From Leptospiraceae bacterium (GTDB taxonomy: Bacteria > Spirochaetota > Leptospiria > Leptospirales > Leptospiraceae), in the NCBI GenBank assembly GCA_025360185.1, contig JANYCR010000266.1:1-40495 (forward strand): a stretch of 40,495 nt of DNA. The letters run 5' to 3'. Of the stretch, positions 35,107-39,888 are shown piece after piece (position 1 is the first letter of the stretch; every line of letters begins with the position of its first letter). Position numbers and translations under genes: made by a program. The notes below the pieces were generated by a model. That model had not been told where the DNA came from, ran no database searches, and was given only the letters and a program-made list of their open reading frames with translations.

Positions 35107-38100
35107 ATGAGAAAAGAGGTTCAAAGATTTAATATAATAAGCCTTTTCAGACAATTGCTTATTATGATTACTCTTTTATTATTTGCGAATTGCACTGCTT
35201 GGCCAATGCTAACTGGTCTATTACTTCCTGCGAAAGGTAAAAAATCCCAATTACTATTTCCTCCTCCAACAAATGCAAATTCTGGAAACAACGAAAGTCT
35301 TCCAGATTCTCTAGTCGCGGGTTTCTCTGTTAGCCCAAAAAACGGATTAATGACAAACGAATCGGGAACAAGCGCTACGTTTACAGTTAAGTTAAACAAA
35401 ATTCCATCTAGCAACGTTACGCTAACCGTAATATCTTCAGACCTATCTGAAATAATTGCCAGCTCGAATTTGCTCACCTTTACACCGGATAATTGGAATA
35501 TTCCTCAAACTATAACACTCACAGGAATCGATGATACTTTGCAGGACGGAAATCAATCAGTTACAATAGACTTAGGAAATGCAACGAGTATAGATAGCAG
35601 CTACCAAAACTTATCCGCTGGAACTATCACAGCCGAAAATATAGACAATGAAGCGACTGGTATAACGGTTTCGGCGCTGGGCGGTCATATAACAACTGAA
35701 GCAGGTGGAAGTTCTACCTTTACAGTAGTTTTAAATTCGATTCCGTCGGCAGATGTAACAATACCAATCTCAAGTAGTGACTTAACAGAAGGAAACGTTA
35801 GTCCCTCTACTCTCACGTTTACAAATTCCAATTGGAATATTCCACAGACAGTTACTATTACAGGCGTTGACGATTCATTAGCAGATGGAAATAGTAATTT
35901 TACAGTTAGTCTTGATCCGTCTACAAGTGCAGATGCAAATTACAACGGGTTATCTCAGCCAAATATTGCCGTTATAAACCAGGACAATGACACCGCAGGG
36001 TTTACAATTATTAATCCGACAATAAACACAAATGAATCCGGAACCAGTAGCGTTTTTTTTGTTGTTCTAAATTCACAACCTACGGCAAATGTAGTTTTGC
36101 CACTGACAAATAATAATACCTCAGAAGGAACTGCCAGTGTAGCGAGCTTAACTTTCACAACGTCTAGTTGGAATATCCAGCAAGCGGTTACAGTAACCGG
36201 ACTAGATGATTTTAACTTAGATGGGAATATCTCTTACACAATTCAAGTCGGTGCTCCTGTCAGTGCCGATTTAGCGTATAATAGTCTTTCGCCTCAAAGT
36301 GTAAGTGTAACTAATATCGACAATGACTCTCCTGCATTTGATATTACTACAATTAGCGGGCATACAAGCGAAGATTTGAACACAGCAACCTTTAAAGTGC
36401 GGCTAATGACAATTCCATCTGCCAATGTAAGCATTAATTTTAGTTCTTCTAATCTCACAGAAGGAATTATTCTATCCGGGTCTAGCCTTACATTTACTAC
36501 CGCAAATTGGAATACATACCAGACTGTTACAATCAGAGGAGTTAACGATAGTTTAGGAGATGGTGATATTACCTACTCCATTATTCCAGCACCTGCAATA
36601 AGTGGAGACGCGAATTACAACGGTTTGACTCCTTCTAATATTACTGTAATTAATGATGACAATGATACAGCAGGTGTAATCGTAAATGCAGTAACCAATC
36701 CACTCATCACAACAGAAAGTGCCGGCAAAGCAACATTTACCGTAAAACTCAGAACGAAACCAACAGCGAACGTAACATTCACCGGAATCACAAGTTCAAA
36801 TACAACAGCCGGAACCGTAGCTCCCGCAAACTTAACATTTACCGCATCAAACTGGAGCGTTCCACAAGTTGTAACCATAACAGGGGTTAATAACGATTAC
36901 TTTAATCCAAGCGGAATTTTGTATACAATCACAGTCCCATCTCCGACTAGTCCTGACATAAACTATAACTCACTTGCAACTAATACTGTAAATGTAAAAA
37001 ACAACGATAACGACACACAGGGATATACTGTTAGCAAAACAAAAAATTTCATAACTGCGGATTCTAATAAATCAGATTCTTTCACGATTCGTCTGAATAC
37101 TCAGCCTGTAGGTGGCAATGCTGTAATACCTGTAACAAGCTCAAATCCTTCTGAAGTCATAGTCTCTCCCTCTGTCTTAACCTTTACAGCGGCTAATTGG
37201 AATACCCCACAAACAGTTACAATGACGGGGCAAGTAGATGGAGTTACCGATGGTTCTAAATTAATTACAATAGCACTCGGAACCCCAACGGTCGCTTCAG
37301 GAAATAAAGACTATTATCCAGATGCAACTGGAAGCGATTATAGTTTAATCAAACTTCCTGATTATAATAGTGCGATCGCAAACAACGGTATGATTACGAT
37401 AAATAATTGTGACACAGACGCGAAGATAGCTCTTTGCTTACCGCCTGCATCAGAGCGAATCACAAGCGAGACTGGAACGAGCTTTCAATACTATGTTTTA
37501 TTAAGTCAAGCTCCTACGGCAAACGTTACAATTAACGCTACTGTTTCTGATACAAATGAAGCAACCGTATCAACGGCAACTATAACAAAGACAGCGGCTA
37601 ATTGGGATACTATGCAGCTCATTACAGTTACAGGAAAGAATGACCCTGCTCTCGAAGCAATTGGTCAACAGCTAGATGGAAATAAACTTTATAATATAGT
37701 TCATTCAGTCGCAGCGAGCCCCGACCCTTATTACAATGGATTTGATGTTGCGGATATTACCAATATAACCAACACAGATCCAGACGTTCCTGATATTATC
37801 ATGTCACCCGCAAATAGTTCGGGAAGCCGAATTACCTTAGTCAATAATAATTCTACTACAGTAACAGTCAGACTTAACGCCCAACCAACGGCTAACGTAA
37901 CTATTAACCTCAGTGGAGCAGGATTTACTTCTACTCCTAGTTCCTTAACATTTACATCAGGAGATTGGAATGTAAATCAAAACGTAACTATCAGTTACAC
38001 TGGAGCGATTGGAAATAGGCAGGTTATTACTTCTAATTTTGCGAGCCTTGATGCGAAGTTTAATGGGAAAACAGTTTCTGATATTTTCTTCACAATTGTT

Positions 38101-38442
38101 CAACCCGGGTTTATGATCGGGGCGATTTCAGGAAATACAGACGAGACAGGAACTACTAGAACGTTTACGGTTAAACTCAATTCGCCTCCAACTGCAAATG
38201 TTATTATAAATATTGTTTCAGCAGACACAAATGAAGTCATAATTCAATCAGCGGCTACTCTCACTTTTACTCCAGCGAATTGGAACACAAACCAGACTGT
38301 CACGGTTAAAGGAGTAGACGAAGGAAATCTGGACGGTGACCAATCAGTTCTGATTCAGCTACAACCGGCAACCAGTGCAGATACTTCCTATGATGGGCTT
38401 GATCCTACCGATGTGACTGTAATTAATTTAGACAATGACTAG
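35107..38442 (+). CDS. Large surface lipoprotein of nine beta-rich repeats
   Basis: An 1111-residue protein. The N-terminal hydrophobic segment (LIMITLLLFANC) ends in a lipobox-like site, so a lipid-anchored Cys is likely; the start could be the ATG at 35107 or one at 35164. From about residue 70 to the last residue it consists of nine units of about 105-130 residues. Each has a TF-V-L motif, LTFT--NWN-PQTVT-TGVDD, an Asp-rich turn DGN, SADANYNGL, then V-N-DND. The pattern is like Calx-beta/cadherin-type calcium-binding beta-sandwiches. Unit 6 is longer, and cysteines occur only at its end and at the start of unit 7. It ends exactly with the ninth DND, without any anchoring domain. I infer an extended surface adhesin or structural protein. 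Confidence 0.8.
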   Translation: MRKEVQRFNIISLFRQLLIMITLLLFANCTAWPMLTGLLLPAKGKKSQLLFPPPTNANSGNNESLPDSLVAGFSVSPKNGLMTNESGTSATFTVKLNKIPSSNVTLTVISSDLSEIIASSNLLTFTPDNWNIPQTITLTGIDDTLQDGNQSVTIDLGNATSIDSSYQNLSAGTITAENIDNEATGITVSALGGHITTEAGGSSTFTVVLNSIPSADVTIPISSSDLTEGNVSPSTLTFTNSNWNIPQTVTITGVDDSLADGNSNFTVSLDPSTSADANYNGLSQPNIAVINQDNDTAGFTIINPTINTNESGTSSVFFVVLNSQPTANVVLPLTNNNTSEGTASVASLTFTTSSWNIQQAVTVTGLDDFNLDGNISYTIQVGAPVSADLAYNSLSPQSVSVTNIDNDSPAFDITTISGHTSEDLNTATFKVRLMTIPSANVSINFSSSNLTEGIILSGSSLTFTTANWNTYQTVTIRGVNDSLGDGDITYSIIPAPAISGDANYNGLTPSNITVINDDNDTAGVIVNAVTNPLITTESAGKATFTVKLRTKPTANVTFTGITSSNTTAGTVAPANLTFTASNWSVPQVVTITGVNNDYFNPSGILYTITVPSPTSPDINYNSLATNTVNVKNNDNDTQGYTVSKTKNFITADSNKSDSFTIRLNTQPVGGNAVIPVTSSNPSEVIVSPSVLTFTAANWNTPQTVTMTGQVDGVTDGSKLITIALGTPTVASGNKDYYPDATGSDYSLIKLPDYNSAIANNGMITINNCDTDAKIALCLPPASERITSETGTSFQYYVLLSQAPTANVTINATVSDTNEATVSTATITKTAANWDTMQLITVTGKNDPALEAIGQQLDGNKLYNIVHSVAASPDPYYNGFDVADITNITNTDPDVPDIIMSPANSSGSRITLVNNNSTTVTVRLNAQPTANVTINLSGAGFTSTPSSLTFTSGDWNVNQNVTISYTGAIGNRQVITSNFASLDAKFNGKTVSDIFFTIVQPGFMIGAISGNTDETGTTRTFTVKLNSPPTANVIINIVSADTNEVIIQSAATLTFTPANWNTNQTVTVKGVDEGNLDGDQSVLIQLQPATSADTSYDGLDPTDVTVINLDND
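35314..38442 (+). repeat. Nine protein-coding tandem repeats (~110 codons each)
   Basis: Units begin near 35314, 35653, 35992, 36328, 36667, 37015, 37420, 37786 and 38107 (approximate, by eye). The most conserved codons encode LTFT followed by NWN and the closing DND. Nucleotide identity between units is modest, so this is an old expansion rather than a recent slippage array. Units 6-8 are the most diverged; units 1-4 and 9 are closest to each other. Confidence 0.7.
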
Positions 38443-38488: not shown

Positions 38489-39820
38489 TCATTTATTCTT
38501 CACTTCCCGCAAAAGCCTTTTAGTCTCCGCTATCATGTAGAGGGGAATAGAAAGTAGCCCCTCATAATAAGACAAAGGAAGCTTTGAATAACGAATAGAA
38601 ATCGAATTTTGCATTTCTTCTTTGTATAATTTTAAACTTTTTAAACTTCCTGTTTTCCCTGCTTTTACTTCGACAGGGAATACTTCTGATTTATATACAA
38701 ACAGATAATCTATCTCCGCACTACTCCCCCGTTTAAATCTTTCCCAATAAAATAATTTTGTTCTCTCTTCTGGATTTGACTCTGCGAGTAATTCTTGTCC
38801 AACAAATTGTTCAGCAAGTCCGCCTTCATAGACTCCCAGTATATTAGGAGAAGTTAAAATTGTATCTTCGAGTCCACTTGCTTTTAAAGAAAGTCCAGTA
38901 TCTAAAAAAGTAAGCTTATAGAAATTATCCTTTGCGTGATAGGAAAGTGGAAGCTCAATATTATTAGTCCCTACAATTCGATTCACAACACCTGCTGATT
39001 CTAAAAGTTCTACAGCATTCTTTAATTCTCTTGAGGGAGTTTCTCTGTCAATTTCGGAGTAGCGAATTTTTTTACCAAGCATTGTGTGGATACTATAGAA
39101 TACCTTCTCTAAATACTTTTGTTTGACCTTACCCGCATACTTAGAAAAATCATTTCGATAGGTATGTAAAAGAGAAAGCTGGATTTGTTTTACTGTCTTA
39201 AAATCTTTTGTTTCGAGATAGACTTTTACGGCTTCTGGCATTCCCCCTACTATCAAATAATCTTTGTATAAATTTAACAATTTTTCATGAACGGCTAATT
39301 CAAATTCATCGGAGAGTTTTACCTCTCGTAAAAAATCTAATACAATAGTTTCGCCTATCGCATCTAAAAATTCTTGAAAGCTGAGAGGATACAGGTGAAT
39401 GTATTGAATTCTTCCCACAGGAGAACGATATTCTTCCGAATTTAATGCAAATTCTAAAAGCGATCCCGCTGCGATTACTGCGAGCGTCGGCATCTGCTCG
39501 TGAAAATAGCGAAGCGAGAGAATCGCCTCAGGACATTCTTGTATTTCATCTAGAAAAAGAATTGTATTTTCCAATTCTATTTTTCGATTCAAAATAAGTT
39601 CTAATTTTTTCAGAATGCGTTCTGGTTTTTTCTCTTGGAAAGAATTTTTCAACTCCGGTTGCAATTCAAAATTGATTTCAATGAAATTCAAAAACTCCTT
39701 TTTTGCAAATTCTCTCACTAGAAACGATTTTCCTACCTGTCTCGCTCCTCGCAGAATCAGCGGCTTTCGGTAGGGCGAATTTCGCCATTCTAGCAATTTT
39801 GGATATAATTTTCGTTTCAT
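38489..39820 (-). CDS. AAA ATPase with DUF4143 domain
   Basis: A 443-residue protein of the widespread ATPase/DUF4143 family. Walker A GARQVGKS is at 25-32 and Walker B ILFLDEIQECP near 87-97; AAGSLLEFAL and FQEFLDAIG are typical of the family. The C-terminal part has E-I-D-Y, then VEVKAGK about 12 residues later, which resembles a PD-(D/E)xK nuclease core. Members are often mobile or accessory and have no settled function; links to toxin-antitoxin-like or defence roles have been suggested. The ATG at 39820 has no Shine-Dalgarno sequence; a duplicated promoter sits immediately upstream. It converges with the repeat lipoprotein across 46 bp. Confidence 0.88.
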   Translation of the reverse strand: MKRKLYPKLLEWRNSPYRKPLILRGARQVGKSFLVREFAKKEFLNFIEINFELQPELKNSFQEKKPERILKKLELILNRKIELENTILFLDEIQECPEAILSLRYFHEQMPTLAVIAAGSLLEFALNSEEYRSPVGRIQYIHLYPLSFQEFLDAIGETIVLDFLREVKLSDEFELAVHEKLLNLYKDYLIVGGMPEAVKVYLETKDFKTVKQIQLSLLHTYRNDFSKYAGKVKQKYLEKVFYSIHTMLGKKIRYSEIDRETPSRELKNAVELLESAGVVNRIVGTNNIELPLSYHAKDNFYKLTFLDTGLSLKASGLEDTILTSPNILGVYEGGLAEQFVGQELLAESNPEERTKLFYWERFKRGSSAEIDYLFVYKSEVFPVEVKAGKTGSLKSLKLYKEEMQNSISIRYSKLPLSYYEGLLSIPLYMIAETKRLLREVKNK

Positions 39821-39825
39821 GGGGC

Positions 39826-39888
39826 TATTTTATACATATAATGTATAAAAGTCAAGGTTATTTTAGACATTTTATGTATAAAAGTCAA
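39826..39888 (-). promoter_or_regulatory. Duplicated palindrome-containing promoter of DUF4143 gene
   Basis: Two 30-bp copies, 39826-39855 and 39859-39888, are spaced with a 33-bp period. On the minus strand each contains TTGACT, a 17-nt spacer and TAAAAT. The proximal pair is at 39850-39855 and 39827-39832; the distal pair is at 39883-39888 and 39860-39865. Overlapping each promoter is an inverted repeat: TTTTATACAT/ATGTATAAAA is perfect at 39828-39850, and the distal one (39861-39883) has one mismatch. The proximal promoter would start transcription at or next to the ATG (39820), giving a leaderless mRNA. Confidence 0.7.

Follow-up and report, generated by a model that had tools for sequence, protein, structure and literature searches.

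Autorepression through tandem operators is a known kind of control. In toxin-antitoxin modules and in the controller proteins of restriction-modification systems, autoregulated operators are palindromes that lie over the promoter and travel with a potentially harmful gene. Iteron-type initiators combine an AAA+ domain with a winged helix, and spaced direct repeats lie just upstream of their gene. The locus described here has features of both. As in toxin-antitoxin and restriction-modification systems, its palindromic sites lie over the promoter and appear to move with a potentially harmful gene; unlike in those systems, the window and a close relative have no partner gene in common, the reader and the nuclease would be one protein, and the spacing of the sites follows the protein clade. 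As in iteron initiators and Orc1/Cdc6, an AAA+ domain and a winged helix go together with spaced direct repeats upstream of the gene, whereas the present family has a fused nuclease-like domain and steps of 15, 23 or 33 nt (15 nt in DUF234 genes). The fold of ATPase, lid and winged helix is that of the STAND ATPases (NLR resistosomes, CED-4, Avs5) and of the archaeal proteins 2QEN and 2FNA, from which the protein differs in being 443 aa long with a nuclease-like C-terminus. DUF234 ATPases (PF01637 plus PF03008) are a sister architecture that also bears upstream repeats, with a spacing of 15 nt instead of 33 or 23 and only weakly in the archaeal set (3/22).

The family corresponds to PDC-S01, a single-gene phage defence candidate of PADLOC composed of AAA_14 (PF13173) and DUF4143 (PF13635). 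It was counted 29,494 times in bacteria and 9,986 times in archaea, as the fourth most common defence across prokaryotes, and most PDCs are said to be without experimental validation (PMC12988326). Passages on this candidate in PMC12988326 and PMC13356809 mention no operator or repeats, and we found no description of the operator pattern of the family in the open-licence PMC literature, with preprints outside the scope. A family-wide, clade-spaced, self-carried operator on a single-gene ATPase-nuclease would thus be new among the literature searched.

The window, which is the whole 40,495-nt stretch of DNA that was analysed, contains the following features of the gene and of the doubled element that precedes it.

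38489..39820, minus strand: gene for a 443-aa AAA_14-DUF4143 ATPase (PADLOC PDC-S01), from the open reading frame and profile matches
39365..39769, minus strand: AAA_14 ATPase domain, residues 18-152, Walker A GARQVGKS and Walker B FLDEIQ, from profile match and alignment
38873..39208, minus strand: winged-helix region, residues 205-316, candidate operator reader, from model and fold match
38492..38956, minus strand: PD-(D/E)XK nuclease-like region, residues 289-443, with conserved E337, E369, D371, E384 and K386, from alignment and fold match
39856..39888, minus strand: distal 33-nt putative operator-promoter unit with imperfect palindrome, from sequence, repeat scan and promoter score
39823..39855, minus strand: proximal 33-nt putative operator-promoter unit with perfect palindrome, from sequence, repeat scan and promoter score
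39861..39883, minus strand: distal palindrome TTTTATACAT-AAA-ATGTCTAAAA, one mismatch, from pattern search
39828..39850, minus strand: proximal palindrome TTTTATACAT-TAT-ATGTATAAAA, perfect, from pattern search
39883..39888, minus strand: distal -35-like TTGACT, from promoter score
39860..39865, minus strand: distal -10-like TAAAAT, from promoter score
39850..39855, minus strand: proximal -35-like TTGACT, from promoter score
39827..39832, minus strand: proximal -10-like TAAAAT, from promoter score

The window protein matches the PADLOC PDC-S01 models over its full length (residues 1-440, E 7.9e-148). The Walker residues and E337, E369, E384 and K386 are invariant in all 28 aligned long-form proteins, and D371 is conserved in at least 90% of them, so that the catalytic E..ExD..ExK set of PD-(D/E)XK nucleases is kept in these proteins. 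Searches with the sequence alone returned little more: weak AAA matches among solved structures, a BrxF match below the cut-off in NCBIfam and an ATPase match in PHROGs (E 0.03). In the AlphaFold2 model (mean pLDDT 90), the first 316 residues matched the archaeal ATPases 2QEN (Z 17.1) and 2FNA (Z 15.7) and, after these, the STAND proteins RPP1 (Z 14.8), CED-4 (Z 14.4) and EfAvs5 (Z 11.5); Orc1/Cdc6 was also among the fold matches. The STAND arrangement of nucleotide-binding domain, helical lid and winged helix is found in this model (Z 14.1-17.1 over residues 1 to 315-334 with 2QEN, 2FNA, RPP1 and CED-4). When the C-terminal part was modelled alone (pLDDT 87), its winged helix gave modest values with 2QEN (Z 7.2) and with an ArsR-type repressor and CodY (Z 6.1), and it matched the nucleases Can1, Can2, Card1 and McrBC at a likewise modest Z 5.4-6.6; the values for Can1, Can2 and McrBC (Z 5.9-6.6) lie in a range that may reflect just a common arrangement. 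The models make it most likely that the protein combines ATPase, winged helix and nuclease in one chain. No Pfam HTH family matched any of the 28 long-form proteins scanned; from the 115 short-form relatives, 70 were drawn at random and 60 of these were scanned, of which 11 matched HTH_36 and 10 matched HTH_11 at E <= 0.1, mostly weakly, and the Thermus relative matched HTH_IclR and HTH_5 above the cut-off.

The doubled element consists of two 33-nt units that are 88% alike and start 33 nt apart. Each unit is a TTGACT-17-TAAAAT promoter-like sequence with an TTTTATACAT-N3-ATGTATAAAA palindrome, and the order on the minus strand is TTGACTTTTATACATAAAATGTCTAAAATAACC, TTGACTTTTATACATTATATGTATAAAATAGCCCC and the ATG (39820-39818). 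A preliminary description of the sequence had reported this duplication, and it proved well beyond chance: the direct repeat scores 21 at period 33, a value reached by none of 3,000 dinucleotide shuffles (best 14), and the inverted repeat scores 17, reached by none of 1,500 (best 13). The same description had placed a palindrome in the spacer of each copy. A palindrome is indeed present in both units, but it extends beyond the spacer, taking in the final -35 base and five of the -10 bases; the proximal one is perfect, with 10-bp arms and a 3-nt centre, while the distal one carries a mismatch that had gone unmentioned. Both units score 10 of 12 promoter matches with a spacer of 17. Here, as elsewhere in this work, promoters are consensus matches only, and such a match is weak on its own because the AT-rich 2.2-kb stretch around it holds 15 sites of this kind against 5.7 expected.

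The proximal -10 ends 6 nt from the ATG, and no Shine-Dalgarno was seen before the gene, both as previously noted. A leaderless mRNA is compatible with this layout and is plausible for the window gene. The lack of a Shine-Dalgarno is not distinctive and is uninformative on a leaderless start, because it is common in this genome: SD-like 4-mers precede 1 of 11 DUF4143 genes of the genome and 5 of 21 genes of the window. Nor is proximity to the ATG a rule of the family: among 75 genes whose 32-34 nt repeats are clear, the distance from the end of the matched downstream copy to the start codon ranges from 0 to 75 nt (median 29).

We searched the genome of origin (G000; 5.83 Mb, 623 contigs) for further copies of the palindrome, as had been proposed, and found none with up to one mismatch beyond the two sites in the window; 4 further places match the pattern at 3 mismatches. 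The idea of a regulon was therefore rejected, the window palindrome being unique in its own genome.

The upstream repeats of the window are one case of a wider pattern of the PDC-S01 family. The genome of origin has 17 DUF4143 matches, and 8 of its 11 testable family genes are preceded by a 32-34 nt or an inverted repeat (p <= 0.05), with letters that differ from gene to gene. As many as 43 DUF4143 matches are listed for the 2.3-Mb genome of locus L031 (G199, a MAG titled Cyanobacteria bacterium REEB446). Similar upstream repeats were seen at many of 36 loci from records of many phyla. To quantify the pattern, 205 family matches in the loci were reduced to 173 genes by removal of 20 without a P-loop, 2 without a start and the duplicates. 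We tested 172 of them on the 120 nt before the start, one being excluded for unread bases, and took as controls 156 upstream regions of 110 nt that belong to other genes of the first loci. Direct repeats of 32-34 nt (p <= 0.05) precede 82 of the 172 family genes and 7 of the 156 controls. The corresponding numbers are 64 and 9 for any direct repeat (p <= 0.01), and 76 and 14 for inverted repeats (p <= 0.05). With regions of an equal 110 nt, the family counts are 81, 64 and 77, respectively. Control matches were kept in the counts although two of them adjoin a DUF4143 array (L054, L082), and in most tests a shuffle p value cannot fall below 1/201. The significant family periods cluster at 32 (20 genes), 33 (35 genes) and 64-67 nt (8 genes), with any other period in at most two genes, whereas control periods are scattered. 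Among long-form genes (>= 420 aa), 44 of 56 have 32-34 nt repeats and 9 have inverted ones; short-form genes have 38 and 67 of 116, respectively (p <= 0.05).

Part of this set comes from 80 family regions taken from the top of a longer match list, and a single genome supplied 20 of these. Many of the genomes are metagenome bins whose phylum names may be wrong, although the arrays themselves are independent of binning. A replicate combined two samples: PF13635 matches from the phylum of G222 (a MAG titled Clostridiales) and, from the class of G220 (a Bacteroidetes MAG), relatives found by their similarity to the window protein. The second of these leans by its construction to the clade of the window. 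Of 39 loci given, 37 were usable; 17 have 32-34 nt repeats, compared with 0 of 46 controls, inverted repeats were found in 7 and 4, respectively, and 13 of the 37 genes lack any site. In the DUF4143 set from the phylum of an archaeal MAG plus one Thermus gene, 7 of 23 genes have 32-34 nt repeats and 5 have inverted ones (28 given; 5 dropped for want of an open reading frame with P-loop, a start or flank). Finally, 8 plasmid- or phage-labelled records were hand-chosen from 25 matches listed. A p of 0.002 for a 32-34 nt repeat was obtained in 6 of them, namely Criblamydia sequanensis, Segatella copri, Collinsella aerofaciens and three phage-labelled contigs. The Parabacteroides distasonis record has only a 66-nt repeat, and that of Fusobacterium vincentii no clear direct repeat (inverted p 0.03). 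Overall, 66 of 252 family genes show none of the three site types.

Similar repeats were also seen before two other open reading frames. On the plus strand of L056, 32-nt direct repeats precede a 281-aa open reading frame at about position 2000, which the family search used did not pick up. On the reverse complement of L082, a 32-nt-spaced GGAAAAATGTGATT pair precedes a 129-aa open reading frame starting at 2946; the pair resembles that of the neighbouring DUF4143 gene, and the small frame is of another kind.

The spacing of the repeats is a clade trait. We pooled all samples and sorted 254 genes by P-loop type. Among the 73 long GARQ-type genes, which form the clade of the window, 57 have a 33-nt step, 1 has a 23-nt step, 3 are palindromic and 12 have none. 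The 25 G[PA][KR]W-type genes include 20 labelled 23 and none labelled 33, and the 106 short G[PA]RQ genes comprise 47 that are palindromic, 28 at 33 and 2 at 23; small P-loop classes hold the remaining 50 genes. In a dedicated set of the GPKWCGK clade (30 loci, of which 28 were used and two others are identical copies), 24 of 28 genes have significant direct repeats, 22 of them at 22-24 nt, one at 46 and one at 18, and none of the 28 has either a 32-34 nt repeat or a significant inverted repeat. Without the four genes that first suggested the 23-nt step, 18 of 24 remain at 22-24 nt. On a FastTree tree of 252 proteins, the 33, 23 and palindrome labels (186 genes) change 19 times, as compared with a mean of 73.4 and a minimum of 67 in 100 shuffles; the 33 and 23 labels alone (126 genes) change 4 times (mean 24.9, minimum 22). 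The two steps are about one helical turn apart. Sister DUF234 genes, one of which (L204) matches PADLOC PDC-S27 (E 1.3e-62), have a step of their own. In the first set (L204-L229, PF03008 loci; 26 given, 23 used), 9 genes have significant direct repeats and 8 of these have a 15-nt step, two of the eight coming from archaeal MAGs; none of the 23 is at 32-34 nt, and 11 have inverted repeats (p <= 0.05). In the archaeal DUF234 set the signal is weak, with direct repeats (14-15 nt, p <= 0.05) in 3 and inverted repeats in 3 of 22 genes used from 28 loci given.

The motifs within the sites track the protein much more closely than the genome. Among pairs of family genes, 53 of 71 with at least 60% protein identity reach an ungapped upstream score of at least 11, as do 33 of 128 pairs at 50-55% and 30 of 591 at 40-45%. 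In the regions downstream, compared for 89 genes with enough flank, similarity does not rise above background, even in the 5 pairs with more than 80% identity. We also compared the proteins by segments over 460 pairs at 45-80% identity, and no segment clearly predicts operator similarity: residues 41-80, 101-120, 241-260 and 421-440 differ by just 0.05-0.07 between the 122 similar-site and the 225 dissimilar-site pairs, which are not independent. A search for spaced TGCAAWAAGTTG pairs in 8 genomes, with position judged by coordinates, returned in 4 of them only two overlapping pairs each, just before the DUF4143 gene; the other 4 genomes have variant motifs. Genome-wide uniqueness thus refers to two motifs, the window palindrome and the TGCAAWAAGTTG pair.

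The preliminary description had made its reading depend on the palindrome being present upstream of close homologues, and it is found before the two closest: L028 has both copies, 33 nt apart, and L029 has one, beside two unread bases. L028 encodes a 93% identical protein in different surroundings. Its homology to the window sets in at the outer palindrome, 64 nt ahead of the ATG, and stops within 7 nt of the gene end; it comprises the repeats and the DUF4143 gene only, with different flanks and no partner gene in common. As judged from this alignment, the window sites moved with the gene. A toxin-antitoxin operator would have a conserved partner gene beside it, and such a gene is lacking from what the window and L028 share. 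L029 and the window have an upstream thioesterase gene in common, and their neighbourhood is therefore older. In the window, argB and the DUF4143 gene are separated by a 1111-aa open reading frame with a Calx-beta match (35107-38442). In L029, sequence that by eye resembles the end of argB seems to follow directly on the DUF4143 gene.

Other close pairs show that gene plus operator is less general as a unit of homology than the window and L028 might imply. Among the 70 close pairs with enough upstream flank, homology reaches 40-150 nt upstream in 24 and further, to more than 1.4 kb, in 2 (the L090/L091 pairs), while 44 have no upstream nucleotide homology; this weakened the idea that gene plus operator is the usual unit. 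Downstream, homology ends near the stop codon in 24 of 44 close pairs with downstream flank, earlier in 15 and beyond it in 5, all of which involve L051. Two pairs of DUF4143 genes are near-identical (97-99%), L103/L153, both in G211, and L164 (G223)/L165 (G220). Their upstream homology stops at 95 and 68 nt, respectively, which suggests recent copying of gene and operator.

Taken together, these data make it probable that the doubled element is a private operator of the PDC-S01 gene that is read by the gene's own product, with the protein binding its own sites and repressing its own promoter. Self-regulation of a potentially harmful protein through tandem operators had been suggested before; the comparison across relatives supports it, and that the protein is its own repressor is what we infer. 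The case relies mainly on the spacing and on the coupling of site to protein. Binding and repression by the protein itself are suggested by its winged helix, by unique sites that overlap the gene's own promoter (a consensus match), by a spacing set by clade and by site sequences that follow the protein; at the window, the sites were inherited with the gene in L028 and are unique in G000. According to this reading, the ATPase-winged helix-nuclease protein would bind its two palindromic sites, which share a face of the DNA at a distance of three helical turns, and family members would bind sites two or three helical turns apart in their own promoters. The bound protein would be a cooperative oligomer over the -35 and -10, and self-repression would keep the level of its own nuclease low. 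Titration or destruction of the protein, or a switch in its nucleotide state, could lift repression, for example when foreign DNA invades. Because reader and sites would form one unit, the gene could work in any host, and paralogues in the same genome need not cross-talk. Several points count against self-reading: the winged helix of STAND proteins is better known as a nucleotide switch than as a DNA reader, the 28 long-form proteins scanned match no Pfam HTH family, no protein segment clearly predicts operator similarity, and the 32-nt repeats of L056 precede an open reading frame that the family search did not pick up. The family genes that lack any site, the 44 close pairs with no upstream homology and a small excess of similar sites among distant pairs of the same genome also speak against it.

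A hint that genes of this family are inducible comes from Thermus thermophilus HB27, where RNA of the AAA_14-DUF4143 gene TT_P0211 rose 6.6-fold with a plasmid in an Argonaute-bearing strain, while in the strain without Argonaute no gene changed more than 4-fold; the authors tie the rise to Argonaute and not to the DUF4143 protein (PMC4406477). The DUF4143 gene of pTT27, taken as TT_P0211 by position only, has by eye two palindromes before its ATG (inverted repeat p 0.02).

Among the other explanations, the one that survives best, although we regard it as unlikely, is that the main role of the spaced sites is to load the ATPase itself onto DNA, where a poised AAA+/STAND assembly would sense invasion or license its nuclease, with lower transcription as a side effect. 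A spacing fixed by clade is expected if it mirrors the geometry of the protomers, the fold resembles oligomerising STAND proteins and Orc1/Cdc6, and the ATPase and nuclease residues are kept. However, the array lies just before the start codon and the two motifs sought were not found elsewhere, which favours gene control.

We give little credence to a separate host repressor, unrelated to the gene product, as the factor that binds the sites. Palindromes overlapping the -35 and -10 are typical of ordinary repressors and count in its favour, as does the slightly larger share of pairs below 40% identity that score at least 11 within a genome (6.3% of 416) than between genomes (3.5% of 2,000 pairs drawn). 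Mean site similarity of these pairs is nevertheless almost equal within (7.9) and between genomes (7.7), and at 45-60% identity sharing a genome brings no gain in the mean (8.8 for 44 pairs and 8.9 for 352 pairs, respectively). In addition, the site of the window occurs nowhere else in its genome, and a spacing of 33 nt is found both in bacteria and in the phylum of the archaeal MAG.

Slightly less credible still is that the repeats are where the nuclease recognises or cuts DNA, or where a mobile unit inserts. Gene and repeats are the unit of homology between the window and L028, and the 24 close pairs that have just 40-150 nt upstream in common fit this explanation too, but inspection of L028, L029 and the window by eye showed no matching repeat beyond the stop codon. 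Control at the RNA level, by hairpins or a leader RNA, comes lower again and seems very improbable: although inverted repeats lie upstream of 67 of the 116 short-form genes, those of the GPKWCGK clade are direct, with significant inverted ones absent (0/28), a spacing near whole helical turns suits duplex DNA, the Rfam scan of this region returned no family at the cut-off (one match lies far below it), and a leaderless RNA, if this is what is made, would not contain the sites. Chance duplication of a promoter in an AT-rich region with many promoter-like matches is almost certainly wrong, as none of the 3,000 shuffles reached the score and the pattern is seen again throughout the family as well as in the replicate.

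A bolder extension of the self-read operator is tentative, and we consider it doubtful at present: PDC-S01 and DUF234/PDC-S27 may form a large class of immune devices, each made of a single gene, whose sensor includes the operator. A compact STAND-like ATPase-nuclease would be poised in a self-silenced assembly on its own helically phased DNA ladder, with a step of 15, 23 or 33 nt set by clade. Invading DNA or an attack on transcription would disturb this complex and so release or activate the protein. If so, a genome could hold dozens of such devices, each with its own address, acting in parallel.

For the family as a whole, the clade-set operator offers a first handle on PDC-S01, as it predicts the DNA target of the protein and the geometry of its oligomer, and also how one genome can hold as many as 43 family matches. 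With sites that differ from gene to gene, these self-contained repressor-operator pairs would provide a set for studying how DNA specificity evolves.
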